Source of the DNA: Sphingosinicella microcystinivorans
GTDB lineage: Bacteria; Pseudomonadota; Alphaproteobacteria; Sphingomonadales; Sphingomonadaceae
Direction: 5' to 3'
DNA length: 64,000 nt
NCBI RefSeq assembly: GCF_027941835.1
Contig: NZ_CP116005.1
Location: 3,239,501 to 3,303,500 of the forward strand
The notes below the pieces were generated by a model. That model was not told the DNA's origin, did no database searches, and was given only the letters and a program-made list of their open reading frames with translations. Below, in pieces: positions 11,057 through 30,126 of this stretch (the stretch's first letter is position 1; every line of letters begins with the position of its first letter). Made by a program: the position numbers and the translations under genes.

Positions 11057-11193
11057 ATCCAAAAAGAATTCTCGTTCAGATTGTCCGCCAGCCGAAGCGT
11101 GTCCGACGTATCGGGGCATCGCAAGATGTTGCGGATCGATATTCGTGCTGCCAAGTTGCGCTGACGGAAAAATTTGTCTTGGAAAGAAAATTC

Positions 11194-12240
11194 ATGGCAT
11201 CCGAAGCTGTCGCGCCTGTCGGCTCGAAAGTCTGGTTGTGGGTTCGCCGTGTCGCCGTCGGCCTCGCCGGCGTGCTCCTGCTGCTGGTGCTCGCTGGCGC
11301 CGTGTACGAGTTTTTCGCGCGTCGCAGCGCCGCCTCGGCCTATCCGCCGCCCGGCAGGCTTGTCGATATCGGGGGGCGCAGGATCCATCTCGATTGCCGG
11401 GGGAGCGGCGCCCCGGTGGTGATCCTGGAATCGGGGCTCGACGTGAACGGATCGCTGGCGTGGTACAAGGTCCACGATGCGCTCGCGAAAAAGACGCGGA
11501 CATGCGCGTATGATCGCGCCGGGATCATGTGGAGCGACCCGTCGAACGGCGTGCGGGACGGCGATCATGTCGCCCGCGATCTTCACGCGGCCCTGACGGC
11601 TGCGGACATCGACGGCCCGCTCGTTCTCGTCGGCCATTCGCTGGGCGGGCCCTACATCATGAACTACACGCGCCAGTTCGGCGGGGCGGTGAAGGGGCTG
11701 GTCTTCGTGGATGCTTCCCATCCCGATCAGCTCGAGAAGCTGGTCCCGCCCGGCAAGGAGAAGATGAAGGTCGAACTGCCCGTCGCCGTCCGCGCGCTGA
11801 GCGCGCTTGCCTGGGCGGGGCTGCCGCGCGTCCTGTCGGGCGCGTTGTCGCCGGAGGAGGACAGCGCGGTCACGCCCGCGCGCAATGCCTACACGCCGAC
11901 CAGCCTGCCCCGCATGATCGACGAGCTGGAATCGCTGGAAATCACGCTTCGTCAGGCGGGCACGTTCAGAACCCTCAGCGATCGGCCGCTGGTCGTCCTG
12001 TCCGGCGCGAAACCGTATCCGAAGGCGGTGCTGGCGGCGCAGGGCCTCAGCGAGGCGGAGGGCCGCGCCCAACTGGCACGATGGCTCGATCTCCACCGCG
12101 ACGAGGCGCGCTGGTCGACGCAGTCGAGGCACGAAATCCTTCCGGACGCCGGGCACTATGTCCAGATGGATCGCCCGGATTCCGTCATCAACGCCGTGAA
12201 CGGGGTCGTGGATCAGGTCCGTGCCGGGGTGGAGGACTGA
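11194..12240 (+). CDS. membrane-anchored alpha/beta hydrolase
   Basis: This 348-residue protein has one N-terminal membrane helix (about residues 15-38, rich in Leu, Val and Ala) followed by an alpha/beta hydrolase domain. The oxyanion region is VVILESGLDVNG, the nucleophile elbow is GHSLGG, and the C-terminal His is in LPDAGHYVQMD. The catalytic domain should face the periplasm. The ATG at 11194 is preferred because AGGAAAG lies just before it; an in-frame TTG at 11179 would add five residues. The substrate is unknown. It converges on the exosortase-associated hydrolase gene with a 30-base gap. Confidence 0.8.
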   Translation: MASEAVAPVGSKVWLWVRRVAVGLAGVLLLLVLAGAVYEFFARRSAASAYPPPGRLVDIGGRRIHLDCRGSGAPVVILESGLDVNGSLAWYKVHDALAKKTRTCAYDRAGIMWSDPSNGVRDGDHVARDLHAALTAADIDGPLVLVGHSLGGPYIMNYTRQFGGAVKGLVFVDASHPDQLEKLVPPGKEKMKVELPVAVRALSALAWAGLPRVLSGALSPEEDSAVTPARNAYTPTSLPRMIDELESLEITLRQAGTFRTLSDRPLVVLSGAKPYPKAVLAAQGLSEAEGRAQLARWLDLHRDEARWSTQSRHEILPDAGHYVQMDRPDSVINAVNGVVDQVRAGVED

Positions 12241-12270: not shown

Positions 12271-13044
12271 TCAGTCTTTCAGGAAATCGCCGATCGCGGC
12301 GAGCAGCGCCTCCTGCGCCTCCGGCCGCGTGAAGGTATGGTCGGCGTTTTCGATCCATCGCGTGCGGACATGCGCGCCGAGGTGCGGCAGCAGTTCGCCG
12401 AAGGCCCGGGCGGTGGCGTCGCTTCGGGAGAGGACGACGAAGACCGGACCCTGAAACGCGTTGAGCGCGGCGACGAGGCGCGCGGCGAGCTTCTGTTCGG
12501 TCGCCGGTTCGGGCCGGGCGAAGACCGAACGCAGCGCGCCCACGATGTCGACCTGCCCGGTGAGGACGCGCAGCCACGCGCCGGGGCTTCTGAGACGCCG
12601 CGCCGTGCGTTCGCGCTGCGCGGCGGCGGGCATTTCGGCGACGGCGCCGTCGAAGCTCCACGGATTGATGAGGACGAGACGGTCGATCCCGGCCCCGGCG
12701 CCGAACAGGGCGAGCGCCGCGGCGCCGTCGCAGAGTCCGATACCAGTCGTGCCGTCGGCGCCGCCTTCCCGGCGAAGCGCGGCGGCGGCTGCCGCGATGT
12801 CGGCTTCGCTGCCGAGGAAGCCTGCATCCCCCCCTTCGCTGTCGCCGACGCCGCGCCGGTCGAAGCGGAGCGTCGGCATACCACGCGCGGCGAGTGCCTC
12901 GGCAAGCCGCGTGAACAGCCGGTGCGGCCCGGCGCGCGTCTGCACGCCGCCCGAGACGATGAGCGTGCCATGCGCGCCGCGCGCGGGATGCAGCGCGGCG
13001 GCGAGTGCGGTGCTCTCGCAGCGGATGACGAGCGGCCGCATCAT
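12271..13044 (-). CDS. exosortase A system-associated hydrolase 1
   Basis: This 257-residue alpha/beta hydrolase matches the family found with XrtA loci (TIGR03100). It has RFDRRGVGDSEG, a nucleophile elbow GLCDG in which Cys105 replaces the usual Ser, and a C-terminal ENADHTF with the expected His. The enzyme may act on an ACP-bound or CoA-bound intermediate, but no reaction has been shown. The start used is the ATG in ATGATG that overlaps the TGA of hydrolase 2; an in-frame ATG three codons earlier (13053) is possible. It is the last gene of the left arm of the locus. Confidence 0.87.
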   Translation of the reverse strand: MMRPLVIRCESTALAAALHPARGAHGTLIVSGGVQTRAGPHRLFTRLAEALAARGMPTLRFDRRGVGDSEGGDAGFLGSEADIAAAAAALRREGGADGTTGIGLCDGAAALALFGAGAGIDRLVLINPWSFDGAVAEMPAAAQRERTARRLRSPGAWLRVLTGQVDIVGALRSVFARPEPATEQKLAARLVAALNAFQGPVFVVLSRSDATARAFGELLPHLGAHVRTRWIENADHTFTRPEAQEALLAAIGDFLKD

Positions 13045-13718
13045 TGCATCCATCCGGCGATGTCGGCCGCGAGCGCGGCTGCATACTCCGGCGCGGGCGC
13101 GGGTTCGGCCTGCCGCCAGACGGGCGGTCCCTCGATCGCGGCGGTGCGGGCCGGCACGGCGGCGACGGGAAGCGCCAGCGCGCCGAGCGCCGAGGCGAGC
13201 GGCGGGGTGACGGCGTACCCCGTCAGCGTGACGGATTCGCCGTGCGCCAGCCGGGCTTCATAGGCGGCAGGGCCGGAGCGTGCGCCGGTGCGCTCCTGAT
13301 CCGTGACCGCCTGCGCGCGCATCATCTCGCGCAGAAGCGCGGCCCCGGACGAGACGGGGGCGATGCGATAGAGACAGCGGCTGCCTTCGCCGTCCGTCAG
13401 CAGCGCACCGCCGCGCACGGCGACGATCCGGAGCGGCCGCGCCGACAGCGCCGCGATTGCGGCGGTGACGGCAGAACGCCAGAGGTCGACGTCGGGTTCG
13501 CCGGGTGCGTCGCCCGTGCCGGGGAGGTCCGGAAGCGCGCTGCCGATGCCGCGCTCCGCAAGCGCGCGGCCGATGTCCGCGAGAAGCCGCCGGGTGCGGT
13601 TCATCTCCTCGAACAGCGGCGGGACGATAAGGACGCACGGCCCGGTTTCGGGGCCGCGCAGCACGGTCGGCAGGTCGAACGGCCCGGCGCCCAGCAGCGA
13701 GAACCGGAACGGCTCCAC
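13041..13718 (-). CDS. exosortase A system-associated hydrolase 2
   Basis: This 225-residue alpha/beta hydrolase-fold protein is of the TIGR03101 type, recognised by PPLFEEMNRTRRLLADIGRAL and LPDLPGTGDAPG. At the nucleophile elbow, residues 100-105 read AVRGGA, with Arg where Ser or Cys would be expected, so it may be non-catalytic or use another residue. It begins one base after the ACP stop region and overlaps hydrolase 1, so the three genes form one unit. Pairing of the two hydrolases is normal for XrtA loci. Confidence 0.85.
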   Translation of the reverse strand: MEPFRFSLLGAGPFDLPTVLRGPETGPCVLIVPPLFEEMNRTRRLLADIGRALAERGIGSALPDLPGTGDAPGEPDVDLWRSAVTAAIAALSARPLRIVAVRGGALLTDGEGSRCLYRIAPVSSGAALLREMMRAQAVTDQERTGARSGPAAYEARLAHGESVTLTGYAVTPPLASALGALALPVAAVPARTAAIEGPPVWRQAEPAPAPEYAAALAADIAGWMQ

Positions 13719-13988
13719 CTAGGCGGCGGCCTTCCGCTCGACGAAGCCGACGAGATTGCCGAAGGTCGCGAAGAGTTCCGCGTCGATCTCGTCGTCGTCG
13801 ATCACGATGCCGAAGCGGTCCTCGATCTCGGTGAGAAGGCCGGCGACCGCCATCGAATCGATCTCGGGCAGCGCGCCGAACAGCGGCGAGGCGGCGTCGA
13901 GCGCGGTGGCCGTCGCAGCGGGCACGCCCAGCACCTCGACGAGAATGCGCCGCATCTGGTCGGCGTGGGAAGCGGTGTCGGCGTTCAT
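13719..13988 (-). CDS. acyl carrier protein of the exosortase A locus
   Basis: This 89-residue acidic four-helix protein carries the phosphopantetheine site Ser45 within [11 protein letters not shown] (DSM). The C-terminal helix has [15 protein letters not shown], typical of carrier proteins. It is the first gene of the hydrolase operon. Paired with the acyl-CoA ligase and PLP decarboxylase on the other arm, it suggests that a carrier-bound acyl or aminoacyl group is made for transfer to the polysaccharide or the sorted proteins; the cargo is unknown. Confidence 0.9.
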
Positions 13989-14069
13989 GTGCCCCCTGTT
14001 CGTATCGTTGTTTCCGGCCGGCGATATACTGGTCGTGCGCCGGGACGTAAATGTACGGAAGGATCGCCT

Positions 14070-14542
14070 CTAGTGCTCCCCGCCCAGCTTGCCGGTCCGG
14101 TAGTCTTCCGCGACGAATTTCAGGAGCTGTGACAGGTGCTGCACGTTCGAAACGCGCGGCTCCGGGTTCGGGACCGCGTCGAGCGGAACCCCGTTTATAT
14201 AGATGTCGAAGCCGTTCGCGTTCGGCTCGGTCGGGTGTTGGGGCGCCCGGCTCACGCCGAAGATCGGCAGGTTGTGCGGCGGCTTCGTATAGGAAACGGC
14301 AAGATCGTAGATGGCGCGCGTCGTTTGCGGGTCGGCATAGGATATGAGCACGATCCTGTGATCGCGCGAGCCGATGATCGCCAAATTCTGGGAGAGTATC
14401 CAGCCGTCGTTCCGCGCCGTGACGTCGAGATAGCGGAGCGAGGTCTGCTGCGTATCCGCTGCGTCTTGCGCCTGTGCGGGGCGAGGCCTGTCGCGACCGA
14501 CAGGCAGAGGATCAGGGCGGGGATGCGCCAGCGGGATTTCAT
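14070..14542 (-). pseudogene. secreted protein of unknown function with a frameshift
   Basis: The frame from the ATG at 14542 gives a clear signal peptide (MKSRWRIPALILCLSVATGL) but then loses protein-like sequence. The neighbouring frame continues sensibly with AQAQDAADTQQTSLRYLDV and runs to the stop at 14070. One missing base in the CCCC run (14478-14481 on the + strand) would restore a 157-residue secreted protein. The second frame has no usable start except a TTG at 14384. GGAGA precedes the ATG. This may be true decay or a sequencing error. No known domain is recognised. Confidence 0.65.
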
Positions 14543-14667
14543 TTCTCGTCTCCGTTTTTCGGGGCGAACAGCGGGCAGACGATCTGCGGCGGAATGCGCA
14601 GCCCGCCTTCGGCGCCCGGTTCGTGGGCGACGGCGATGATCATGCGCCTGTCGTCCGTGTTCGTCGG
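14539..14667 (-). pseudogene. in-frame continuation of the upstream secreted-protein gene after a TAA
   Basis: After the TAA at 14668-14670 the same frame stays open for 42 codons (including RRMIIAVAHEPGAEGG and IPPQIVCPLF) and ends in TGA that overlaps the next ATG (ATGA). The coupled stop suggests that the original gene ended here and that the TAA is a nonsense change. Alternatively the ATG at 14643 starts a separate 34-residue peptide, but no clear ribosome site was found for it. Confidence 0.4.
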
Positions 14668-15642
14668 TTACCTGGCGAGAATGGCATTGCGTTCCTGCGC
14701 GCCGTAGATCCGGAAGGCATTGAACGCGCGTTCGGCAAGCGCGGCGTCGACGTGGTGAACGCCGTATCCGTAAACGTGGTCCCCGTTCAGGCTGGGCTCC
14801 ACCATCGTGAAGGACCCGCACTGCTTCCACGCCGCGAGGTGCGGCTGCGGTTTCGGTTGCAGGGCGCCCGCCATCGCGACGACGCGAATCACGTAGTCCT
14901 GCACGGCGAAGCCGCACGCGGAGCGGTTGCCGGTGCGCGCGGTGTGCAGGGGGCGGCCGATGCGGTTGCCGCCGTCTGCGAGGAACTGCGCCTCGCTCAT
15001 CACGCCCTTCTGGCCGGCCGGTCCGACGAACTGCACCCGTGTGGCGACGTCGTAGACGATCAGATTGTCGGGATCGTAGTGGCCGCCGAGCGGTTCGACC
15101 GGGAACACCGAGACTACGGTGATGCCCGGCAGCGCGCGCCCGTTCGATCCATCGGGATTGAGGGTGCGGGTGTGGCCTCGATAGCCGGCTCCGGCCTCGG
15201 CATTGTAGGTGAAGGCGCGGCCGATGTCCTGCGCGTTGTATGGATTTTCCGGCGCGGGCCTTGCCGTGGCGGCGAGGTTGGAGTGGTCCGCGGCCCGCAG
15301 CGCCGCGCCCCGCTTCACGGCTTCCGCCTGCGCCTGCCGGAGCGTCATGCCGGGGCGGATGCCGAGCGCGTCCAGCGCCAGCAGGTAATCGGCGGTCGTC
15401 GCAGCACTCCGGGGCGCGGAGGCAGATGCCTGCTGCTGCTGGACATACTCGCGCTTCGAGCGCGGTCCTTGCGCAGCGGACGATTTCTCGCCCGGGGCAG
15501 TCGTGCCGCAGGCCTTCGCGATGGCCTTGCGCTCCTCGGTGGACTTGCCGACCATGCGGCAATCCTGCTGCGCCTGCGCGGATTCGGCTTGAAGGCCGAG
15601 GGCCGAAGCAACAACGACGAAGCTTGCAAGCGACCGGCGCAT
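14668..15642 (-). CDS. secreted protein of unknown function, possibly truncated
   Basis: A 324-residue protein starts at the ATG at 15642 behind AGGGGG. Residues 1-25 are a signal peptide ending ESAQAQ. A low-complexity Gln/Ala/Ser linker follows, then a globular part with ALGIRPGMTLRQAQAEAV, NPYNAQDIGRAFTYN and YGYGVHHVDAALAERAFNAF. Two Cys pairs (near residues 28 and 45, and in the C-terminal half) could form disulfides in the periplasm. I do not recognise the family. The gene sits inside the XrtA locus between the ACP arm and the ligase arm and is divergent from the GNAT gene. The TAA that ends it may be a premature stop (see the next entry on the minus strand). Confidence 0.65.
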   Translation of the reverse strand: MRRSLASFVVVASALGLQAESAQAQQDCRMVGKSTEERKAIAKACGTTAPGEKSSAAQGPRSKREYVQQQQASASAPRSAATTADYLLALDALGIRPGMTLRQAQAEAVKRGAALRAADHSNLAATARPAPENPYNAQDIGRAFTYNAEAGAGYRGHTRTLNPDGSNGRALPGITVVSVFPVEPLGGHYDPDNLIVYDVATRVQFVGPAGQKGVMSEAQFLADGGNRIGRPLHTARTGNRSACGFAVQDYVIRVVAMAGALQPKPQPHLAAWKQCGSFTMVEPSLNGDHVYGYGVHHVDAALAERAFNAFRIYGAQERNAILAR

Positions 15643-15738
15643 GATGCTGTTCCCCCTGGCAGTTTCGTCGTGCCCGACGCATGAGTCGATATACTGCGCC
15701 GACTTGCCGCGGTAAATGCGGCCGGAATCGGGGGCGAG

Positions 15739-16389
15739 ATGGCGTTTTCGGATACGCTCAGAACATTGGGGCCGCTGACGAGCCTGTCCTACGCGCTCGG
15801 GCGTGCGGCGGCGCGGGTTCCGGGCGTTTCGTGGCATCGCTATGTCCTTATCGCCGTGCCGCTCTCCGGTATGCCGAAGATGCCGCGCGGCCATGTCGTG
15901 CGCGAACTTTCGGCGGACGCGCTCAAGACTTTGGTCATTGATGCGCCCCTAGACGTGCAGGCGGACCGGTTCGCACGCGGGCTCACCTGCCTCGGCGCGT
16001 TCGACGGCGAGGTGCTGGTCGGCGTCAACTGGCTGGCGCGGGATCAATACGACGAGGACGAGGTGGACGTGCGGTTTCTGCTCCCCGACGACGCGGCATG
16101 GGACACGGGCCTGTGGATTCGCGAGGACCGGCGTCTCGGCCGCGCGTTCGCGGCGCTGTGGGCAGGGACGGGCGTGTGGCTGGCGGAGCGGGGGCTGAAG
16201 CGCTCGCTGAGCCGCATCGCCGACTACAATACGGGCTCGCTGCGGCCGCACGAGCGGATGGGCGGCAAGACGCTCGGCACGCTCGCGGCCATGCGCCTCG
16301 GCGCGTGGCAGATCGCGGCGCGCGCGAGCCCCGCGGCGGTGCGCGTGGGGGCTGGGGCGCCTGCGGTCTGCGACCTGAGGGGCTGCTGA
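15739..16389 (+). CDS. GNAT-like acyltransferase of the XrtA locus
   Basis: This 216-residue protein resembles GNAT acyltransferases: a central beta-strand region (LGAFDGEVLVGVNWLARDQYDEDEVDVRFLL shortened here to its core GEVLVGVNWLARDQ), helix AFAALWAGTGVWLAERGL, and the substrate-end segment RIADYNTGSLRPHERMGG. The acetyl-CoA loop is weak, so the assignment rests on overall pattern. It ends three bases before the acyl-CoA ligase start and opens the right arm of the locus. It may transfer the acyl group made by the ligase/ACP system to an amine; this is inference. Confidence 0.6.
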   Translation: MAFSDTLRTLGPLTSLSYALGRAAARVPGVSWHRYVLIAVPLSGMPKMPRGHVVRELSADALKTLVIDAPLDVQADRFARGLTCLGAFDGEVLVGVNWLARDQYDEDEVDVRFLLPDDAAWDTGLWIREDRRLGRAFAALWAGTGVWLAERGLKRSLSRIADYNTGSLRPHERMGGKTLGTLAAMRLGAWQIAARASPAAVRVGAGAPAVCDLRGC

Positions 16390-16392
16390 ACG

Positions 16393-17883
16393 ATGCGGGT
16401 GGATGCGCTTCATCTCGGGCACGACGGCGCGCGCGCAGCGCTCATCGAGGGCGCACACACCACGACCTATGCCGAGCTCGAGGCGCTCGTCGGCCAGATG
16501 GCGAGCGGCCTCGCCGCGCTCGGCGTCCGGCCCGGCGACCGGGTCGCGGTGTGGCTCAGCAAGACCACGGGCAACATCGCGGCGCTGCTCGGCGCGATGC
16601 GCGCGGGCGCGGTTGCGATTCCGGTGAACCCGGTGCTGAAGGCGCCGCAGGTCGAGCACATCGTCGCCGACAGCGGCGCGACGGTGCTGCTGACCAACAA
16701 TGCGCGCTCCGAAACGCTCCGCAACACGCCGCGCACCTGCCGCGTCCTGCGCGCGGAAAAGGACTGGGGCGTGCTGATGAAGGGCACGCCCGTGGCCGTG
16801 GACCGCGCGCCCGACGACCTCGCGGCGATTCTCTACACGTCCGGCAGCACCGGGCGTCCCAAGGGCGTGATGCTCTCCCACGCCAACCTTGTGCTCGGCG
16901 CGGAAAGCGTTTCCGAATATCTCGGCATCAGCGGCGAGGATCGCATCCTCTGCGTGCTGCCGCTCGCGTTCGACTACGGCCTCAACCAGGTGCTGACGGC
17001 GCTGAAGCAGGGTGGCACGGCGATCCTGCTCGATTACCTGCTGCCGCGCGACGTCGTGAAGGCCGTGGCACGCCACAAGGCGACCGGGCTCGCGGGTGTG
17101 CCGCCGCTGTGGATGCAGCTTGCCGAGGTGGACTGGCCCCCCGAGGCACGCGGCCTGCGCTACATCACCAACTCCGGGGGACGGATGCCAGCAGCGCTGA
17201 CGAAGCGCCTGCGCGAGTTGCTGCCCGGCACGAAGATCTACCTGATGTACGGCCTCACCGAGGCGTTCCGGTCGACCTATCTCGACCCCGCGCTTGTCGA
17301 CACGCACCCCGACTCGATCGGGCGGGCGATCCCGCGCGCGGAGCTTCACGTGCTGCGCGCCGACGGGACGCCGGCGGCGGCGGGGGAGCCGGGCGAGCTT
17401 GTTCACGCCGGGCCGCTCGTCGCCAAGGGCTACTGGAACGATGCCGAGCGTACCGCCATGCGGTTTCGTCCGGCGCCCGCGTTCTTCCGGCATTCGGGCA
17501 TGGCCGTGTGGTCGGGCGACACGGTGATGCAGGACGATGAGGGCCTGCTCTATTTCGTGGGCCGCGACGACGAGATGATGAAGGTCTCGGGCAACCGCGT
17601 GAGCCCCACCGAGGTCGAGGAGGCGATCTTCGCGACCGGCGCCGTCAGCGTGGTGGCGGTGTTCGGCGTGGCGGACGAGCGGCTGGGGCAGGCGATCATC
17701 GCGGTCGGCGTGCCGGCCGCCGGTCTTTCAGGGGACGACGCGGAGGCGCTTGCGCGGCGGGAGCTTGCCGGACTAGTGCCTGCCTACATGGTGCCGCGCC
17801 ATTTCATCTGGGAAACCGAGCTGCCGCGCAATCCGAACGGCAAGATCGACCGCGCCGTGCTGCGCGCGAGGCATGTCCAGTGA
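16393..17883 (+). CDS. acyl-CoA ligase (AMP-forming), exosortase A system-associated
   Basis: This 496-residue ANL-family enzyme activates a carboxylic acid with ATP. The P-loop YTSGSTGRPKG is at about residues 148-158, with YGLTEAF, the hinge motif YFVGRDDEMMKVSGNRV, and the C-terminal LPRNPNGKIDR holding the catalytic Lys. The family (TIGR03098) occurs with XrtA. It may load an acid on CoA or directly on the nearby ACP. Its end overlaps the GTG of the PLP decarboxylase by four bases, so the two proteins are made together. The substrate is unknown. Confidence 0.9.
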   Translation: MRVDALHLGHDGARAALIEGAHTTTYAELEALVGQMASGLAALGVRPGDRVAVWLSKTTGNIAALLGAMRAGAVAIPVNPVLKAPQVEHIVADSGATVLLTNNARSETLRNTPRTCRVLRAEKDWGVLMKGTPVAVDRAPDDLAAILYTSGSTGRPKGVMLSHANLVLGAESVSEYLGISGEDRILCVLPLAFDYGLNQVLTALKQGGTAILLDYLLPRDVVKAVARHKATGLAGVPPLWMQLAEVDWPPEARGLRYITNSGGRMPAALTKRLRELLPGTKIYLMYGLTEAFRSTYLDPALVDTHPDSIGRAIPRAELHVLRADGTPAAAGEPGELVHAGPLVAKGYWNDAERTAMRFRPAPAFFRHSGMAVWSGDTVMQDDEGLLYFVGRDDEMMKVSGNRVSPTEVEEAIFATGAVSVVAVFGVADERLGQAIIAVGVPAAGLSGDDAEALARRELAGLVPAYMVPRHFIWETELPRNPNGKIDRAVLRARHVQ

Positions 17884-19109
17884 GCCGCGATCACCGCATC
17901 CACCCGCTGTTCCTAGAAATGGACGGAGAGCTCGCCATCGCGGGCCGCACGGCGGCCGAATGGATCGCGGCGGCGGGCGGGCAGACGCCGCTGTTCGTCT
18001 ATGATCGTGCCATCATTGCGGCGAAAATCGCCGACCTGCGCGCGGCGCTGCCGGCGGAGGTCGGCATCCACTACGCCATGAAGGCGAACCCGATGCCCCC
18101 GCTCGTCGCGTGGATGGCGGGGCAGGTGGACGGGCTCGACGTCGCCTCGGCGGGCGAGCTGCGGGTCGCGCTCGCGGCAGGCGCCGATCCGGCGCACATC
18201 AGCTTCGCGGGGCCGGGCAAGCGCGATTTCGAGCTGGAGCTGGCGATCGGCGCGGGGGTGACGCTCAACATCGAATCCGCGCGGGAGTTCGCGCGCGCCG
18301 CCGCGATCGGCGACCGGCTCGGGAAACCGGTGCGCGCCGCCGTGCGCGTCAATCCGCCGTTCGACCTCAAGGCCTCGGGGATGCGGATGGGCGGCGGCGC
18401 CAAGCCGTTCGGCGTCGATGCCGACAAGGTGCCCGCGCTGCTCGCGGAGATCGAGACGGCAGGCGCGGATTTCCGAGGGTTTCATGTCTTCGCCGGTTCG
18501 CAGAACCTCTCGGCGGAAGCGATCATCGACGCGCAGAAGAAGACGCTCGACCTGGTGGCGGACCTCGCCGAGCACGCCGCCGTCCCGCCGCCGCTCGTCA
18601 ATCTCGGCGGCGGCTTCGGCCTGCCGTATTTCCCGGGCGACAAGCCGCTCGACCTCGCCGCGGTGGGCCATGCGCTCGGCAAGGCACTCGCAGGGCGCGA
18701 TCCCATCCTCGCCGACACGCGGTTCGTCCTCGAGCTCGGGCGCTATCTCGTCGGCGAAAGCGGCGTCTATCTGACCCGCGCGGTCGACCGGAAGATGAGC
18801 GAGGACGAAGTTTTCATAATTACCGACGGCGGCCTGCATCATCAGCTGGCGGCAAGCGGCAACTTCGGCACGGTCGTCCGGCGCAACTATCCCCTTGCAA
18901 ACGCTAGCCGTTTCGGCGCGCCGGACGCGGAGAGCCTGAACGTGGTCGGCTGCCTCTGCACGCCGCTCGACAAGCTCGGCGACAAGGTGATGCTGCCGGC
19001 CACCGAAGTCGGTGACATCATTGCGGTTTTCATGGCGGGCGCCTATGGCCTCACAGCCAGCCCGACAGCCTTCCTGAGCCACGAACCGCCCGCCGAAATG
19101 CTTGCGTAA
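17880..19109 (+). CDS. PLP-dependent decarboxylase, exosortase A system-associated
   Basis: This 409-residue fold-type III decarboxylase is related to diaminopimelate and ornithine decarboxylases (TIGR03099). The PLP lysine is Lys68 in HYAMKANPMPPLV, the phosphate-binding region is LVNLGGGFGLPYF, and the C-terminal active-site segment is VVGCLCTPLDKLGD. It begins at a GTG in a GTGA overlap with the ligase. It probably removes a carboxyl group from an amino acid or a loaded aminoacyl group to give an amine used by the XrtA system. The amino acid is not known. Confidence 0.9.
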   Translation: MSRDHRIHPLFLEMDGELAIAGRTAAEWIAAAGGQTPLFVYDRAIIAAKIADLRAALPAEVGIHYAMKANPMPPLVAWMAGQVDGLDVASAGELRVALAAGADPAHISFAGPGKRDFELELAIGAGVTLNIESAREFARAAAIGDRLGKPVRAAVRVNPPFDLKASGMRMGGGAKPFGVDADKVPALLAEIETAGADFRGFHVFAGSQNLSAEAIIDAQKKTLDLVADLAEHAAVPPPLVNLGGGFGLPYFPGDKPLDLAAVGHALGKALAGRDPILADTRFVLELGRYLVGESGVYLTRAVDRKMSEDEVFIITDGGLHHQLAASGNFGTVVRRNYPLANASRFGAPDAESLNVVGCLCTPLDKLGDKVMLPATEVGDIIAVFMAGAYGLTASPTAFLSHEPPAEMLA

Positions 19110-19275: not shown

Positions 19276-19914
19276 ATGGCGAAATCTTTGAATGCGGTCG
19301 TTCCGGCTCTCGCGGCGGCCCTGGCGCTTTCGGCCTGCGCCTCGAACAGCGGGCTGCCGACGCTGCCGCCCGCGCAATTCCAGGCTTCGGATGACGGCCC
19401 CGGTGCAGAATACGTGGTCGGCCCGCTCGATTCCCTCAGCATCTTCGTGTGGCGCAACCCGGAGCTGTCGACCTCGGTGACGGTGCGCCCGGACGGCCGC
19501 TTCACGACGCCGCTGATCGAGGACATGGTGGCGACGGGCAAGACGCCCTCCGCGCTCGCCCGCGAGATCGAGCAGAAGCTCGGGACCTACATCCAGGAAC
19601 CGATCGTCTCGGTGATCGTGAACAACTTCAACGGACCGCTTTCGCAGCAGGTTCGCGTCGTCGGCGAGGCGGCGCGCCCGCAGGCGATCCCGTTCCGCTC
19701 CAACATGACGCTGCTCGACGTCATGATCGCGGTCGGCGGCCTCACCGAATATGCCGCCGGCGACAGCGCCCGCCTCATCCGCTACGACAAGGCGAGCGGC
19801 ACGCAGAAGGAATATGCGATCAAGATCGAAAGCCTGCTGAAAGGCGGCAAGACCAACGCCAACGTCGCCGTGCAGCCCGGCGACGTCATCATCATCCCGG
19901 AAAGCTTTTTCTAA
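19276..19914 (+). CDS. polysaccharide export lipoprotein, XrtA-associated (Wza-like)
   Basis: This 212-residue outer-membrane polysaccharide export protein (TIGR03027 type) has a lipoprotein signal with the lipobox LSAC and the lipid-bearing Cys21. A Poly_export domain follows (YVVGPLDSLSIFVWRNPELS), then a SLBB-like domain (VRVVGEAARPQAIPF, LLDVMIAVGGLTEYA) and the end NVAVQPGDVIIIPES. It should form the periplasm-to-surface channel for the exopolysaccharide. It starts the main export/biosynthesis stretch and is followed by the chain-length gene after 71 bases. Confidence 0.93.
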   Translation: MAKSLNAVVPALAAALALSACASNSGLPTLPPAQFQASDDGPGAEYVVGPLDSLSIFVWRNPELSTSVTVRPDGRFTTPLIEDMVATGKTPSALAREIEQKLGTYIQEPIVSVIVNNFNGPLSQQVRVVGEAARPQAIPFRSNMTLLDVMIAVGGLTEYAAGDSARLIRYDKASGTQKEYAIKIESLLKGGKTNANVAVQPGDVIIIPESFF

Positions 19915-19985
19915 GCTTTCCGGGCTAGGTACGGCGATCGGCCGTTGGCCGTTCATCCTTGTCACGCAGGCGGTCCGCGAAAGCC

Positions 19986-21527
19986 ATGAATTCGATCCAG
20001 GAAGAAGTGATGACGACCCTGTACGGGGTCTGGCGCAAACGCTGGTACGGGCTTGCGCTGATGTGGGCCGTGTGCCTCCTCGGCTGGGTGTTCGTGGCGA
20101 CGATCCCGAACACCTATGAATCGCGCGCCCGCGTCTACGTCGACTGGGCGTCGCTGATTCCGGAGAAGCTCGGATACCAGGGCGCGAACCTGCTCCGGCA
20201 GGTGGACGTCGTCCGTCGCACGCTGACGTCGCGCGTGAACATGGAGAAAGTCGTTCGCCGCACCGAGCTCGATGTCGGCCTCGACAGCGACCGGGAACTG
20301 GACGAGCTCATCGCGCGGATGACGAACAACATCTCCGTGCAGAGCCAGCAGGCCGACCTGTTCACCATCATCTACAAGTCGAACGATCCGTCGCGCAGCA
20401 ACGCCCAGAACGCCAACCTCGCGCGGCGCGTCGTCGACAACCTCATCCAGATCTTCATGGAAGAGAACGTCGCGTCCGACCGCGACGACATCAACGAGGC
20501 GATCCGCTTCTTCGAGGACCAGCTCGCCGAGCGCGAGCGCCAGCTCGAGCAAGCCGAGCGGCGCAAGGCGGAGTTCGAGGAGAAATACCTCGGCATGCTG
20601 CCGGGGCAGGGCAACATCACGACGCGCCTGACCTCGGCGCGGACCGACCTCGACCGTGTCGAGATCGAGCTCGCGCAGGCCCGCAACTCGCTTCTGGCGC
20701 TGCAACGGCAGATCGGCGGAACGCCGTCGACCATCAATGCCCCCTCGTTCGTCATCGAGGGCGCGATGACATCGAGCCCGACGCAGCAGCAGATCGCCGC
20801 GCTGGGCCGCAGCCTCAGCGACATGTACGCGCGCGGCTGGACCGACCAGCACCCCGACGTCGTGGCCACCAAGGCGCAGGTCCGCCGGCTGGAGCAGCAG
20901 GCCGCCCGCGAGGCGAAGGACCCCGAGCTTCGCCAGCAGGCCGCGCAGGCGAACCCGGTCTATGTCAACTTGAGGAGCATGGTGTTCGAGCGCCAGTCCG
21001 CCGTCGCGGCGCTCGAGGCGCGCAGGGCGCAGTTGCAGAACGCCATTTCCGAGATGGCGTCGCGGCAGGTCCAGCAGCCGGGCATCGTCGCCGAGCAGGC
21101 CAAGCTGAACCGCGACTACGAGGTGTTGCAGTCGCAGTACAACCAGCTGCTGAAGTCGCGTGAGGAAATCCGCCTCAGGAGCGATGTCGAGACCAAGACG
21201 CAGCAGGTGAAGTTCCGCGTCGTCGATCCGCCCTCGCAGCCGCGCGAGCCGATCGCGCCGAACCGCCCGCTCTACCTCAGCCTCGTGCTGCTGGTCGGCC
21301 TCGGCGCGGGCGGCGCGCTCTCCTTCCTGCTGAGCCAGCTGCACACGACCTACATCACGGCGGCGCAGCTCGAGAAACGCTTCGACTATCCGGTGCTGGG
21401 TTCGGTCACGGAGATCGTCTCGGACAACCAGCGCGCCCAGAACAGGGTGTGGCTCTGGGGGTTCGGCGTGCTGAGCCTTGGGCTCATCGTGATCTATCTT
21501 GCCCTGCTGCTGTATGAACTCGTTTAA
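19986..21527 (+). CDS. XrtA system polysaccharide chain-length determinant protein (Wzz/GumC-like)
   Basis: This 513-residue inner-membrane co-polymerase (TIGR03007 type) has an N-terminal helix (WYGLALMWAVCLLGWVFVA), a long periplasmic coiled coil of about 350 residues rich in Glu, Arg and Gln, and a C-terminal helix (LYLSLVLLVGLGAGGALSF). A further C-terminal helix is at WLWGFGVLSLGLIVIYLAL. The proline-rich motif before the second helix (PPSQPREPIAPNRP) is typical of the family. The ATG at 19986 (MNSIQEEVM) is preferred to the in-frame start at 19959. It works with the next gene, the tyrosine kinase, to set chain length. Confidence 0.92.
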   Translation: MNSIQEEVMTTLYGVWRKRWYGLALMWAVCLLGWVFVATIPNTYESRARVYVDWASLIPEKLGYQGANLLRQVDVVRRTLTSRVNMEKVVRRTELDVGLDSDRELDELIARMTNNISVQSQQADLFTIIYKSNDPSRSNAQNANLARRVVDNLIQIFMEENVASDRDDINEAIRFFEDQLAERERQLEQAERRKAEFEEKYLGMLPGQGNITTRLTSARTDLDRVEIELAQARNSLLALQRQIGGTPSTINAPSFVIEGAMTSSPTQQQIAALGRSLSDMYARGWTDQHPDVVATKAQVRRLEQQAAREAKDPELRQQAAQANPVYVNLRSMVFERQSAVAALEARRAQLQNAISEMASRQVQQPGIVAEQAKLNRDYEVLQSQYNQLLKSREEIRLRSDVETKTQQVKFRVVDPPSQPREPIAPNRPLYLSLVLLVGLGAGGALSFLLSQLHTTYITAAQLEKRFDYPVLGSVTEIVSDNQRAQNRVWLWGFGVLSLGLIVIYLALLLYELV

Positions 21528-21565
21528 CGCACCGGCTTTTGCCGCGTGCGCGGAAGGTAAAGAAG

Positions 21566-22576
21566 ATGAGTGAAGAGAAACCGTCCGGAACGCCGCGCGC
21601 CTCGCTGCTTGAGCGGGCCGCCGGACGGCTTGACCAGGGCGTGGCCGCGAAGCCCGAGGCGTCGCGTCCGGCCGTGGTGCCGGCGGTCGCTCCGGCCCCG
21701 CGCGCTCCGGCCCCCCGCGCACCTGCGCCCGAGCCAGCAGCCGCGCCGCCGGTGTCCGTGTCGCCGCAGCCGCAGTTCGCGCCGCAATTCGCCACGCCGG
21801 AAACGCCCGTGGTGCATCTGCCCGCGGACGACGGCAACCGCACCAGCCGCCGCGGCGTCATCGACCTCTCCGAACTCCGCGATCTCGGCTACGTGGTGCC
21901 GGACGCGCCCGCGACGGCCACCGCCGAGGAGTTCCGCATCGTCAAGCGGCAGCTCCTGATCAACGCGATGGCGCGCGGCGAGAACGGGATCCGCAACGGC
22001 AATCTCATCCTGGTGTGCTCGGCGCAGCCCAACGAGGGCAAGACGTTCTGCGCCACCAACCTCGCGCTTTCGATCGCTTCCGAGCGCGACCTCACGGTCC
22101 TGCTCGTCGACGCGGACTTCGCCAAGCCCGAGATCCTCTCGACGCTCGGCCTCGAAGGCGGCAAGGGCCTGATCGACGTGATCGCCGATCCGTCGCTCGA
22201 CCTGTCCGACTGCCTGATCCGCACCAACATCGAGAACCTCTCCGTGCTGCCCGCCGGGCGCCAGCACAACCTGACGACAGAGCTGCTCGCGTCGGAGCGC
22301 ATGGGCGACATGGTCGAGGAGATCGCCAAGCGCTACAGCGACCGCATCGTCATATTCGATTCCCCGCCCGCGCTGGCGTCGTCGGCCGCCTCGGTGCTCG
22401 CCATGCACGTGGGCCAGGTGATGTTCGTGGTCGAGGCCGAGAACACGCGCGAGACGGAGCTTCGCGACGGCCTGTCGCTGATGAGCGGCTGCGAGCACGT
22501 GCAACTGCTCCTCAACAAGGTACGCTATGCCGGTGTCGGCAGGCGCTTCGGGACGTATTACGGTTATGGAAGCTGA
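21566..22576 (+). CDS. XrtA-associated tyrosine autokinase
   Basis: This 336-residue cytoplasmic BY-kinase (TIGR03018 type) opens with a Pro/Ala-rich linker of about 80 residues, then the kinase domain. Walker A is SAQPNEGKT, Walker A' is VLLVDADFAKP, and Walker B is RIVIFDSPPAL. The tail ends GTYYGYGS, giving the tyrosine cluster expected for autophosphorylation. GGAAGG precedes the ATG at 21566. It should partner the chain-length protein encoded just upstream. The end overlaps the start of the next gene by 11 bases. Confidence 0.92.
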   Translation: MSEEKPSGTPRASLLERAAGRLDQGVAAKPEASRPAVVPAVAPAPRAPAPRAPAPEPAAAPPVSVSPQPQFAPQFATPETPVVHLPADDGNRTSRRGVIDLSELRDLGYVVPDAPATATAEEFRIVKRQLLINAMARGENGIRNGNLILVCSAQPNEGKTFCATNLALSIASERDLTVLLVDADFAKPEILSTLGLEGGKGLIDVIADPSLDLSDCLIRTNIENLSVLPAGRQHNLTTELLASERMGDMVEEIAKRYSDRIVIFDSPPALASSAASVLAMHVGQVMFVVEAENTRETELRDGLSLMSGCEHVQLLLNKVRYAGVGRRFGTYYGYGS

Positions 22577-24275
22577 CGTGACGGGCACTTTGACGACGGG
22601 CGGCGGGAGCCGCGGATACAGGCGCCGCCGGACGCTCGCGGCGACCGGGATGGCGGTGTCGGTGCTGACGGCGATGATGCCCGCGTCGGCATCCGCCGAT
22701 GTCGAGATCAACCCGTTCGTATCGCTCCGGCAGGTCGTGTCGGACGGGAAAAACCGTGACGGGCGGGGATGGCTGGAAGCCGGCGCCGGCTTCGCCGCCC
22801 TGCTCGATACGAACCGGGTCGAGGGCAAGCTCGGCTATCGCTACGCGCGCCGGATCGAGGAATTCGGCAACATCAACCGGAAGAACCGTCACTATGCGAA
22901 CGCCGACGTGCGGGCGGAGGTGATCGACGATTTCCTGATGATCAATGCCGGGGGCACGGCGTCGCAGTACACGACGGACATGCGCGGCTTCAATGCCGTC
23001 AACCCCGACGACGAGAGCGGCAACCAGACGCAGATATTTTCAGGCTACGTGGAGCCGAGCATCCACCAGCGCCTCGGCGATTTCGCGACGTTTCAGGGCC
23101 GCTACCGGCTCGGCGCCGTGTCCGCCGACTCGCCGCGCGAGGGGTTCACCAATCCCGGCAGCATCGGGCTCGACCCCAGCGACGGTATCGGCTCGCGGCT
23201 CAGCGATTCCATCACGCAGAGCGCAGGCGTGACGCTCGCCTCGACGCGCGCGACCAACACGATCAACTGGTCGCTCGACGCGCAGGCCACGCACGAGGAC
23301 GTCGATCAGCTCGATCAGAAGTACCGCGGCTACAGCGCCGGCGGCGAACTTGGCTTCCGCGTGTCGCGCAAGCTGGAGCTTCTTGGCAGCGCCGGCTACG
23401 AAGACATTGAAAACACGCAGGACAGCATTCTCTTTGACCCGGACACCGGCCTGCCGGACCTCGACGATAACGGGCGTTTCCAGGTCGACCCGACGATGCC
23501 GCGACGGACGGCCTACGATTTCAGCGGCATGTACTGGAATGCGGGCTTCCGCTATACGCCGTCGCGCCGCACGTCGCTCGAATTCCGGGCGGGCGAGCGC
23601 TACGGTTCGGCGAACTTCTTCTTCAACTTCAACCATCGTTCGCGCAACGGCATGTCCGTGCGCGCCAACTTCCAGCAGACGCTGAACAGCTTCAGCCGCC
23701 TGCTCACCCAGTCGATCAACGGCGTTCCGGTCAATGTCGCCCGCGTCGCGGGGCTGGAGCAACTCGGCATTCCGTTCTGCGTCATCGGCATCGACCCGGA
23801 ATCGGATGACGGCGATTGCCTGGGCGGGTTCACGCAATCGCTGACGCCGGCGACGTTCAAGTCCGATCGCGGACTGTTCATGGTCTCCCGCAGGCTCGAG
23901 GCGCTGACATGGTCCGCCACGGCCTACTACGACAGGCGCCGCTACGTGGACGCGCAGCAGCTGCAGGCGCCCACGCAGGCCGAACTGCCGACGGGCCTTT
24001 TCGGGCACGACGAATCCTTCGGCGTGCGCGGGCGCGTCGTGCTTCGGCTCGGCGATCTCCAGTCGCTCGGCTTCGATGCGCTGGCGGCGCGCAACAGCTA
24101 TGCGCTGTCGGCCCGGCGCAAGGACACGCAGGTCACGGTCGGCACGCAGTATTCGCGGCGGCTGAGCAGGAATCTGCGCGGCAATGCCTCGCTCTATGGA
24201 ACCCAGCGCTTCAGCGAAGGCTATCAGGATACGTCATCCTTCACGGCTTCCGTGGGTGTGAGATACAATTTCTGA
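22566..24275 (+). CDS. outer-membrane beta-barrel protein, PEP-CTERM system-associated (TIGR03016 type)
   Basis: This 569-residue protein has an Arg-rich N terminus followed by a signal peptide ending MMPASASA. The rest alternates polar and hydrophobic residues with many aromatic strand ends and finishes with SFTASVGVRYNF, the terminal Phe typical of outer-membrane barrels. Two Cys near residues 410 and 420 sit in an external-loop-like segment. It is conserved in XrtA loci and may form or assist the outer-membrane export pore. The ATG at 22566 overlaps the kinase gene; an in-frame start at 22527 lies well inside that gene. Confidence 0.85.
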   Translation: MEADVTGTLTTGGGSRGYRRRRTLAATGMAVSVLTAMMPASASADVEINPFVSLRQVVSDGKNRDGRGWLEAGAGFAALLDTNRVEGKLGYRYARRIEEFGNINRKNRHYANADVRAEVIDDFLMINAGGTASQYTTDMRGFNAVNPDDESGNQTQIFSGYVEPSIHQRLGDFATFQGRYRLGAVSADSPREGFTNPGSIGLDPSDGIGSRLSDSITQSAGVTLASTRATNTINWSLDAQATHEDVDQLDQKYRGYSAGGELGFRVSRKLELLGSAGYEDIENTQDSILFDPDTGLPDLDDNGRFQVDPTMPRRTAYDFSGMYWNAGFRYTPSRRTSLEFRAGERYGSANFFFNFNHRSRNGMSVRANFQQTLNSFSRLLTQSINGVPVNVARVAGLEQLGIPFCVIGIDPESDDGDCLGGFTQSLTPATFKSDRGLFMVSRRLEALTWSATAYYDRRRYVDAQQLQAPTQAELPTGLFGHDESFGVRGRVVLRLGDLQSLGFDALAARNSYALSARRKDTQVTVGTQYSRRLSRNLRGNASLYGTQRFSEGYQDTSSFTASVGVRYNF

Positions 24276-24346
24276 TGGCGGATTGATGGAAACGTCACGA
24301 CGACGAGGTAAGCCGGGGGGCGTTTTCGAGGAACACAGGCACGAGC

Positions 24347-25429
24347 ATGTACACCGAGTTCTACAACCTGAACGGACGCCCGTTCCAGCTGACGCCTGAT
24401 CCGCGCTTCTACGTCGACACGCAGACGCACCGGAAAGCGATGGCCTACCTCACCTACGGCCTCGGCCAGGGCGAGGGCTTCATCATCATCACCGGCGACG
24501 TCGGCGCGGGCAAGACCACGCTGGTCGGCCGCCTGCTGCAAACGATCGACCGCTCGAAGCTCGTCGTCGCCAACATCGTCACCTCGCTGGTCGATGCCGA
24601 CAACCTCCTGAAGATGATCGCCACCGGGCTCGGCATCAACGCCGAGAACCTCGATGTCGCGACGCTGCTGACGCGCATCGAGAACTTCCTGCGCGTGCAG
24701 CACCAGCAGGGCCGCCGCGTGCTGCTGATCGTCGACGAGGCGCAGAACCTGCCGATCGGCTCGCTCGAACAGCTTCGGATGCTCTCGAACTTCAGCGCCG
24801 GCGCGCAGCCGCTCAGCCAGACGATCCTGCTCGGCCAGCCGGAGTTCCGCGAGAAGCTGGCGAATTCGTCGGAGCTCGAGCAGCTCCGCCAGCGCGTCAT
24901 CGCCTCGCACCACCTGGAGCCGATGCGCCGCGACGAGATTCCAGCCTATGTCGAGAACCGGCTGGCGCTGTGCGGCTGGTCGGGCGACCCGACCTTCACC
25001 GACGACGCCTACGACGCGCTTTTCGACTATTCGGGCGGCGTGCCGCGCAAGCTGAACAACCTCTGCGCGCGCGTGCTGCTGTTCGGCGCGCTCGAGGAGA
25101 AGCACGAGATCGACGAGACGATCGTGCGCGAGGTGACCGACGACCTGCAGCGCGACAACGCGCCGCGCGACCGCGAGAAGATCATCCCGCCGAACAGCGC
25201 CTCGCTGGCGGCCGTTCCCGCTGCCGCGCCGCAGGTGCAGCCGGTGGCCGGGATCGGCGGCGGGGCGGCCGCGACGATCGACGACCGGCTGATCGCGCGT
25301 ATCGACCGTCTTGAACATTATGCTTCAGAAAACGACCGTAACCTGCGGCAAGTCCTGAGAATTCTTTCCGATCTCGTCGAGCAGAACGAGGTCGAGCGCG
25401 GCCCCTACGGCGTCAGCCGAAGCGCATGA
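24347..25429 (+). CDS. XrtA/PEP-CTERM system-associated AAA ATPase
   Basis: This 360-residue ATPase (TIGR03015) resembles the ExeA/GspA type. It begins MYTEFYNLNGRPFQLTPDP, with Walker A GDVGAGKTTL, Walker B RVLLIVDEAQNL, and LRMLSNF and sensor regions after it. The last 60 residues are a Pro/Ala linker and a short coiled helix. It probably energises assembly or transport steps of the polysaccharide machinery at the inner membrane. Its end overlaps the deacetylase ATG by four bases, starting a coupled chain of genes that continues to xrtA. Confidence 0.93.
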   Translation: MYTEFYNLNGRPFQLTPDPRFYVDTQTHRKAMAYLTYGLGQGEGFIIITGDVGAGKTTLVGRLLQTIDRSKLVVANIVTSLVDADNLLKMIATGLGINAENLDVATLLTRIENFLRVQHQQGRRVLLIVDEAQNLPIGSLEQLRMLSNFSAGAQPLSQTILLGQPEFREKLANSSELEQLRQRVIASHHLEPMRRDEIPAYVENRLALCGWSGDPTFTDDAYDALFDYSGGVPRKLNNLCARVLLFGALEEKHEIDETIVREVTDDLQRDNAPRDREKIIPPNSASLAAVPAAAPQVQPVAGIGGGAAATIDDRLIARIDRLEHYASENDRNLRQVLRILSDLVEQNEVERGPYGVSRSA

Positions 25430-26304
25430 GCGGCGCCGTGGCGAACCGCGGCGTCTGCAATGCGATGTCGGTCGACGTGGAAGAGCACTTCCAGGTCGGC
25501 GCGTTCGAGGCGACCATCCGCCGCGAGGACTGGCCGCGCTGGGACAGCCGTGTCGTCCGCAACACCGAGCGCGCGCTTCAGCTCTTCGCCGACAAGGGCG
25601 TGTCGGCGACCTTCTTCACGCTCGGCTGGGTCGCCGAGCGCGAACCGGCGCTGATGCGCCGCATCGTCGAGAACGGCCATGAGATCGCCAACCACGGCTA
25701 CGCGCACGACCGCGTGCACACGTTCGCGCCGGAGAGCTTCCGGGCGGACATCCGCAAGGCGCGCGCGCTGATCGAGGATGCGGCGGGCGCCGAGGTCAAG
25801 GGCTACCGCGCGCCGAGCTTCTCGATCGGCAGCGGCAACCGCTGGGCGCTCGAGGTGCTGGCCGAGGAAGGCTACGCCTACAGCTCGTCGGTCGCGCCGA
25901 TCCGGCACGACCACTACGGCTGGCCGGAAGCGCCGCGCTTCCCGCACAGGCCGGTCGCGGGGTCGGACATGGTCGAGGTGCCGGTGACGACGGTGGAGTA
26001 CGCGGGCCGCCGCATGGCGTGCGGCGGCGGCGGCTTCTTCCGGCTGCTGCCCTACGGCCTCTCCGAATGGGCCATCGACCGCGTGAACCGCGTCGAGGGG
26101 CAGGCGACGGTGTTCTACTTCCACCCGTGGGAGATCGACCCCGAGCAGCCCGTGGTGCCGGGCGCGCCGCTCAGGTCGCGCATACGCCACTATACGAACC
26201 TCGATGTCATGGAGGCCAAGCTCACGCGCCTGCTGGACCGGTTCCGCTGGGACCGCATGGACCGCGTGTTCCTCGGCCGCGAGGCGCTGAAGGCGGCGGC
26301 ATGA
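25426..26304 (+). CDS. XrtA system polysaccharide deacetylase
   Basis: This 292-residue NodB-type carbohydrate esterase (TIGR03006) has the catalytic acid region MSVDVEEHFQVGAFE, the metal-binding HEIANHGYAHDRV and the YRAPSFSIG motif, with the C-terminal HPWEIDPEQP. It removes N-acetyl groups from the growing or exported glycan, exposing amines. That fits the nearby acyl-activation genes, which could re-acylate them (inference). No signal peptide is seen, as is usual for this subfamily. It has ATGA overlaps on both sides. Confidence 0.93.
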   Translation: MSGAVANRGVCNAMSVDVEEHFQVGAFEATIRREDWPRWDSRVVRNTERALQLFADKGVSATFFTLGWVAEREPALMRRIVENGHEIANHGYAHDRVHTFAPESFRADIRKARALIEDAAGAEVKGYRAPSFSIGSGNRWALEVLAEEGYAYSSSVAPIRHDHYGWPEAPRFPHRPVAGSDMVEVPVTTVEYAGRRMACGGGGFFRLLPYGLSEWAIDRVNRVEGQATVFYFHPWEIDPEQPVVPGAPLRSRIRHYTNLDVMEAKLTRLLDRFRWDRMDRVFLGREALKAAA

Positions 26305-27353: not shown

Positions 27354-27357
27354 GGCG

Positions 27358-30122: not shown

Positions 30123-30126
30123 GGCC

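Follow-up and report, generated by a model that had tools for sequence, protein, structure and literature searches.

In the vicenistatin pathway, VinN loads 3-methylaspartate on the carrier VinL and VinO decarboxylates the bound group to 3-aminoisobutyryl-VinL, and in that of fluvirucin B2, whose starter is beta-alanine, FlvN is the ligase for Asp (both reviewed in PMC11284099). Here we analyze an AMP-forming ligase, a standalone acyl carrier protein and a pyridoxal phosphate (PLP) decarboxylase, hereafter the triad, encoded next to the exosortase A (XrtA) locus in a 64,000-nucleotide stretch of Sphingosinicella microcystinivorans (the window; contig NZ_CP116005.1, positions 3,239,501 to 3,303,500). 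The triad resembles VinN, VinL and VinO (and FlvN) in joining an adenylating enzyme, a standalone carrier and a PLP decarboxylase that would act on a carrier-bound amino dicarboxylate; unlike them, it is kept bare in genomes that have lost the XrtA neighbours, and it would have a role in primary metabolism. The butirosin proteins BtrI, BtrJ and BtrK also work on a carrier-bound substrate, and BtrK shares the LCTP.D motif with our decarboxylase. They differ in that the ligase BtrJ is an ATP-grasp enzyme, and in that BtrK uses glutamate and its product goes to an antibiotic. Regarding aspartate decarboxylase PanD, the likeness lies in the predicted net reaction (aspartate to beta-alanine), in a complementary distribution and, in one genome, in the same chromosomal site. 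PanD is nevertheless a pyruvoyl enzyme of an unrelated family and acts on free aspartate in a single step, with neither ATP nor carrier. Taken as a whole, our reading is that the triad probably decarboxylates carrier-bound aspartate and thereby replaces PanD.

The decarboxylase (17880-19109, plus strand) scores 564 bits against the curated TIGR03099 cut-off of 478. Its closest solved relative is BtrK, the L-glutamyl-[BtrI carrier] decarboxylase (1e-73, 252 bits), followed by a protein listed as a probable diaminopimelate decarboxylase (4e-36, 128 bits). In a FastTree phylogeny of 85 sequences, 64 decarboxylases from XrtA-type and XrtA-less loci form one clade (support 0.95), which joins BtrK and 14 distant decarboxylases (0.87) apart from the genome's lysA product; four further distant decarboxylases fall outside the BtrK group, at a poorly supported node. 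The PLP lysine K68 and the cysteine C360 are present in all 82 aligned decarboxylases. C360 belongs to the motif LCTPLD (C360-T-P-L-D), whose counterpart in BtrK is LCTPED, and diaminopimelate decarboxylases have CES at this place. As in BtrK/VinO-type enzymes, the protein is thus nearer to BtrK than to lysA and carries CTP instead of CES. One could argue that it is a spare diaminopimelate decarboxylase with a carrier and a ligase as unrelated neighbours, given that it matches TIGR01048 with 223 bits. This score falls short of the 298 bits required for lysA, a separate lysA gene (462 bits) exists in the genome, and ligase and carrier are constant companions of the decarboxylase in XrtA and non-XrtA loci alike. 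Together with the motif, the BtrK relationship and the tree placement, this led us to reject the spare-lysA explanation, which we regard as extremely unlikely. The enzyme is predicted to be an aspartyl-carrier decarboxylase.

The ligase (16393-17883, plus strand) also exceeds the curated cut-off of its family, TIGR03098 (652 versus 592 bits). At E<=1e-9, its pocket region (146 aa) matches only PDB entries 3wv4, 3wv5 and 3wvn, named non-ribosomal peptide synthetase in the match listing, which we take to be the 3-methylaspartate ligase VinN. The VinN residues D230, S299 and R331 (in the numbering we assume), presumably those that bind the amino and carboxylate groups, align with D194, S261 and R293 of the ligase at one constant offset of 16. 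All 76 aligned ligases have D194 and R293, and 75 of them have serine or threonine at position 261, so that, if our reference residues are right, the Asp, Ser/Thr and Arg of a VinN/FlvN-type pocket are all conserved. The protein is therefore a putative aspartate:carrier ligase. Regarding the carrier (13719-13988, minus strand; Pfam PP-binding, 3.5e-7), the phosphopantetheine serine is S45 (nucleotides 13854-13856), and the DS motif is kept in 64/64 matches. It stands alone near the decarboxylase, as in BtrK/VinO-type systems. A carrier was found in 29 of 30 loci of a phylum sample, in 25 of 26 XrtA-less loci (it is missing in G531) and in 64 of 65 long named loci, in gene maps drawn with a simple custom gene caller that may miss small genes.

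The combination of a BtrK-like decarboxylase with a VinN-like ligase pocket leads to the prediction that aspartate is converted to beta-alanyl-carrier. The ligase would adenylate the side-chain carboxylate of L-aspartate and load the aspartyl group on the carrier phosphopantetheine, and the decarboxylase would remove the alpha-carboxylate to give beta-alanyl-S-carrier. Release from the carrier would then provide beta-alanine for pantothenate and coenzyme A (CoA), in place of PanD. A preliminary description of the locus, which grouped the triad with two hydrolases and a GNAT-like protein, had already proposed acid activation, carrier loading and on-carrier decarboxylation of an amino-acid-derived group, and homology and active-site residues speak for that part of it. 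We hold it very likely that the triad decarboxylates a carrier-bound amino acid, likely that the conversion is from aspartate to beta-alanine, and somewhat probable that the product feeds CoA as a PanD substitute. Since BtrK acts on glutamyl-carrier and VinN on 3-methylaspartate, the line might instead handle another acid, turning glutamate into gamma-aminobutyrate or 3-methylaspartate into 3-aminoisobutyrate for a specialised metabolite or lipid. We consider this quite unlikely, as it leaves unexplained both the panD pattern and the site swap described below. Many genes around the triad in these loci have no assignment.

The preliminary description saw all six genes as one line, whose acyl or aminoacyl product would serve only to modify the polysaccharide linked to XrtA or the C-terminal ends of sorted proteins. 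The gene neighbourhood speaks for this, and so does a survey of 398 genomes of the phylum, in which 30 genomes passed the TIGR03099 cut-off and 35 that of XrtA, 27 passing both (27/35 XrtA genomes versus 3/363 others). The two are kept together even where they lie far apart on one contig (G318, G349 and G102) or on different contigs (G338). Within about 10 kb of the 30 decarboxylase genes, window included, a ligase was present in 29, an association beyond chance; in G102 the ligase lies about 1.9 Mb away from the decarboxylase, and in G318 it is hydrolase 1 that neighbours XrtA, with ligase and decarboxylase paired at another place. Hydrolase 1 was absent from the three genomes with the decarboxylase and no XrtA over cut-off (G155, G396 and G107). 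It was also absent from the eight with XrtA only, none of which has a ligase that passes the cut-off (the match in G368 reaches 421 bits).

We then surveyed 196 genomes of the order Sphingomonadales, taking E<=1e-120 for the decarboxylase, E<=1e-20 for hydrolase 1 and the family cut-off for XrtA. The decarboxylase was found in 133 genomes (130 over the family cut-off), XrtA in 127 and hydrolase 1 in 106. Hydrolase 1 was present in 97/101 genomes with both decarboxylase and XrtA, in 4/32 with decarboxylase and no XrtA over cut-off, and in 2/26 with XrtA and no decarboxylase; two of those four have XrtA matches under the cut-off of 208 bits (G401 with 178 and G424 with 205). Hydrolase 1 thus tracks XrtA and the triad jointly. 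Regarding the 28 genomes with decarboxylase, no XrtA and no hydrolase 1, seven matched exosortase less strongly (E 1e-37 to 1e-45), which may reflect an exosortase of another type. We mapped about 10 kb on each side of the decarboxylase in 26 of the 28 (L075, L080 and L136-L159; all but G398 and G542). The ligase was present in all 26, and no match was found in these stretches to export, chain-length, kinase, FemAB, XrtA, glycosyltransferase, hydrolase 2 or Acetyltransf_6 genes; a deacetylase occurred in one, and the single hydrolase 1 match was weak (24 bits, L143). The XrtA-associated TIGR03015 ATPase is kept beside the decarboxylase in 7/26 loci (L080, L141, L146, L148, L152, L154 and L155).

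As the triad is kept after loss of the XrtA locus (32/133 decarboxylase genomes lack XrtA over cut-off, and the export genes and the hydrolase pair are gone from the mapped 26), it should have a job independent of XrtA and its polysaccharide. We therefore rejected the single six-gene unit, the triad being separable from the hydrolases, and a product made only for polysaccharide or sorted proteins is also at odds with the complementarity between triad and panD. Decoration as the sole purpose of the six genes is, in our view, rather unlikely. Genomes with xrtA and none of these genes, which the preliminary description had named as a case against its own proposal, do exist at the level of gene content, decarboxylase and hydrolase 1 both being absent from 24 of the 127 XrtA genomes of the order.

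A gap in beta-alanine supply has been published for this order. In Table A2 of PMC7142369, aspartate decarboxylase (ADC, PanD) is scored 0 in all 19 listed Sphingomonadales, pantothenate synthetase (panC) and panB are present in 18/19, and beta-alanine synthase (PYD3), which catalyses the final step of the uracil route, in 2/19. The triad is present in two of the listed species, N. capsulatum NBRC 12533 and Citromicrobium JLT1363 (loci L222 and L232). The AmaB/reductive uracil route of Rhizobium etli described in that paper is, like our proposal, a source of beta-alanine other than PanD in an alphaproteobacterium; its chemistry and genes are different, and PYD3 is absent in 17 of the 19 Sphingomonadales of the table. 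Some members of the order do have panD in our survey, namely in family f2 and in three genomes of genus g214, so the PanD gap is not order-wide. In the open-access literature searched, we found no report linking the exosortase-associated triad to pantothenate or beta-alanine supply.

In a first look at 26 genomes, panD was present in 3/3 triad-less g214 genomes, 0/4 other decarboxylase-less genomes and 0/19 decarboxylase-positive ones. Across the order it was found in 23/196 genomes, 1/133 with the decarboxylase versus 22/63 of the others (Fisher 1.3e-11, a value that ignores phylogeny). This is the mutual exclusivity expected of a PanD replacement. The one exception, G483, is a genome of 76% completeness whose decarboxylase does not reach the family cut-off and is encoded in a cluster with several ligases, as in the distant group. 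We set it aside as a counter-example, its cluster being of another type, and panD is accordingly found in 0/130 genomes with a decarboxylase over cut-off. Among the 24 XrtA genomes of the order that lack both decarboxylase and hydrolase 1, 16 have panD. Within genus g214 alone, panD is present in 0/11 genomes with the decarboxylase and in 3/3 without it (p 0.0027). Outside the order (a list of 77 genomes), we found panD in 0/10 decarboxylase-positive genomes, 5/15 with sub-cut-off relatives and 16/52 others.

The chromosomal site points in the same direction. In G529, panD lies between truA and trxB, where congeners (e.g. L158) have decarboxylase, ligase and carrier, and the flanks are collinear. 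A tblastn search of this stretch and of the corresponding ones of G571 and G552 gave no convincing triad remnant. In Sandaracinobacter neustonicus (L198), panB, an unassigned open reading frame (ORF), bamB, der, the ligase and the decarboxylase follow one another on one strand, and the six genes run in identical order in G531 (L157); truA is also a neighbour in these panB loci, so the proximity of panB may be a by-product of position. In four panD-positive loci of family f2 (L176-L179), panD is one gene away from ilvD, and ilvD flanks the triad locus in several genomes of family f1.

One could argue that the complementarity is a phylogenetic coincidence, with an early loss of panD in the order and two later reacquisitions unrelated to the triad. 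The roughly two independent panD-positive lineages and the 41 genomes with neither gene would fit this. We judge it unlikely, because panD occupies the triad's own site in G529, because panD is absent from 10/10 decarboxylase-positive genomes outside the order (a weak argument, since it is also absent there from 7/7 triad-less XrtA genomes), and because the ligase chemistry independently suggests an aspartate-like acid.

Several observations weigh against the replacement of PanD by the triad as we propose it. For XrtA-less genomes, the proposal does not account for the exit of beta-alanine from the carrier, and in G531, Sandaracinobacter neustonicus and G318 the ligase and decarboxylase genes had no carrier gene next to them in our maps. 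That 3wv4, 3wv5 and 3wvn are VinN, and that D230, S299 and R331 have the roles given above, is assumed. Besides, when the ligase is searched over its whole length, 3wvn is outscored by gramicidin synthase, a peptide synthetase and a feruloyl-CoA synthetase; a PDB profile search with the whole ligase alignment is likewise dominated by gramicidin synthase, and it is the pocket alone that picks out 3wv4 and 3wvn. Neither panD nor the decarboxylase is present in 41/196 genomes of the order, which would need another route or uptake, and within the order panD is confined to essentially two lineages, family f2 and the three g214 genomes. Outside the order, the 7/7 XrtA genomes that lack both triad and panD belong to the 52 others. 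The clean site swap is seen in G529 only; in G571 and G552 extra genes are present, panD being next to truA in the former and about 5 kb away from trxB in the latter. As panD is near fmt/truA in G032 as well, this neighbourhood may favour panD for other reasons.

Among the distant relatives of the triad, L110 (8016-13563) has in a row a ligase, a BtrK-like decarboxylase, a B12 radical-SAM protein, a carrier and an aminoglycoside-3-N-acetyltransferase-like (AAC(3)-like) protein, and looks like an unexplored aminoacyl-transfer cluster. In L119, a related decarboxylase lies with a ligase, a small carrier, a glycosyltransferase 61 and a hexapeptide transferase. Such polysaccharide-type neighbours in L119, and the AAC(3)-like transferase of L110, count in favour of decoration. 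In L117 (8057-10489), the BtrK-like decarboxylase is fused to a part annotated as acyl-CoA dehydrogenase-like, and that of L118 is of equal length; several ligases and small carrier-like ORFs are close by in both. A core of ligase, carrier and decarboxylase that is combined with different transferases is in line with carrier-bound chemistry at large, and it leaves room for a use of the carrier-bound group for decoration in XrtA genomes.

The remaining three of the six genes are probably those linked to XrtA. Hydrolase 1 (12271-13053, minus strand) passes the curated cut-off of TIGR03100 (189 versus 168 bits). It has GxCD in place of GxSxG, with Cys108 at the nucleophile position, and C108, D212 and H239 are conserved in 26/26 homologues. 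In a structure model (predicted local distance difference test, pLDDT, 80), strand 101-107 leads up to C108, and helix 109-117 follows it. We predict a transacylase or thioesterase; a cysteine nucleophile would fit thioester acyl transfer at least as well as hydrolysis. Hydrolase 2 (13041-13718, minus strand) is homologous to TIGR03101 and occupies the same place in the locus, with a score (74 bits, E 1e-20) under the membership cut-off of 203. It presents Arg102 at the nucleophile position, conserved in 24/25 homologues from the phylum loci and 20/20 of a second set, and its model (pLDDT 88) shows the alpha/beta hydrolase fold, with strand 96-101 followed by a helix at 102. Given this arginine, it is probably not a hydrolase in spite of its fold. 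Serine hydrolases were thus rejected for both proteins, Cys108 and Arg102 standing where the serine nucleophile is expected. Fold searches with the two models did not point to a function, the best 50 matches including generic esterases, lipases, lactonases and thioesterases.

The GNAT-like protein (15739-16389, plus strand; Acetyltransf_3, E 0.0016, under the cut-off of that family) is a candidate accessory acyltransferase and an optional one. The preliminary description counted it as a member of the module, which does not hold for the relatives in general: of the loci searched, only L070, L092, L182 and L251 have a homologue, which makes two of the 29 phylum loci besides the window and two of 80 named loci. 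A GNAT-fold protein of another type (Acetyltransf_6) lies between carrier and ligase in 52/65 long named loci, and many relatives (e.g. L078, L079 and L081-L086) have it at the place of the window GNAT. The same 65 loci comprise 48 with hydrolase 1 and export genes, four with export genes only, seven with hydrolase 1 only (where export genes may lie beyond 9 kb) and six with neither, so that hydrolase 1 and the export genes are more loosely associated here. As exceptions to the link between hydrolases and XrtA, L160, L161 and L162 (G499, G547 and G564) have XrtA-locus genes and the triad with no hydrolases, two of the three also carrying the Acetyltransf_6 protein, and L195, L233, L247 and L258 are named loci with export genes and no hydrolase 1.

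In the window, all six genes lie where the preliminary description had placed them, and the XrtA locus (19276-32043) follows directly after the decarboxylase gene, with XrtA itself at 28515-30122 on the plus strand (TIGR03109, 328 bits versus a cut-off of 208). Overlapping starts had been described inside each arm. With the longest ORFs, this is true of two of the four junctions, hydrolase 1/hydrolase 2 (13 nt) and ligase/decarboxylase (4 nt); hydrolase 2 and carrier abut, and GNAT and ligase are separated by 3 nt. The approximately 1.75 kb between the arms hold a 324-aa ORF (14668-15642, minus strand) that looks secreted, its start resembling a signal peptide; it matches nothing in Pfam or NCBIfam, and the other mapped loci hold no homologue of it. 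A further alpha/beta hydrolase gene (11179-12240, plus strand; Abhydrolase_1, 1e-13) is convergent with that of hydrolase 1 and has a single weak match in the mapped loci (L090, 29 bits).

In XrtA genomes, the carrier pool of the triad is probably also used by hydrolase 1, the Arg-substituted hydrolase 2 and a GNAT-fold acyltransferase, on behalf of the XrtA/exopolysaccharide system. An extended version of our reading, in which many members of the order make the beta-alanine of CoA on a carrier that itself needs CoA, as a nonribosomal-style loop within primary metabolism, and XrtA lineages tap the beta-alanyl-carrier for an amine-bearing acceptor, is more doubtful and is offered tentatively. 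The tapping would proceed through a cysteine transacylase with its Arg-substituted partner, and the acceptor would serve the polysaccharide or the sorting reaction.

The chemistry of the triad has close precedents, and it is the setting and the consequence that would be new if confirmed. Two questions meet here, namely the role of the exosortase A-associated ligase and decarboxylase and the source of beta-alanine in Sphingomonadales. TIGR03098 and TIGR03099 are both still 'hypothetical equivalogs' in NCBIfam, and, if our reading is true, the names of these families mislead. Chemistry of the kind used for antibiotics would have moved into vitamin synthesis, and only the two hydrolases and a GNAT-fold acyltransferase would be left as the part specific to XrtA, with beta-alanyl-carrier as their substrate.

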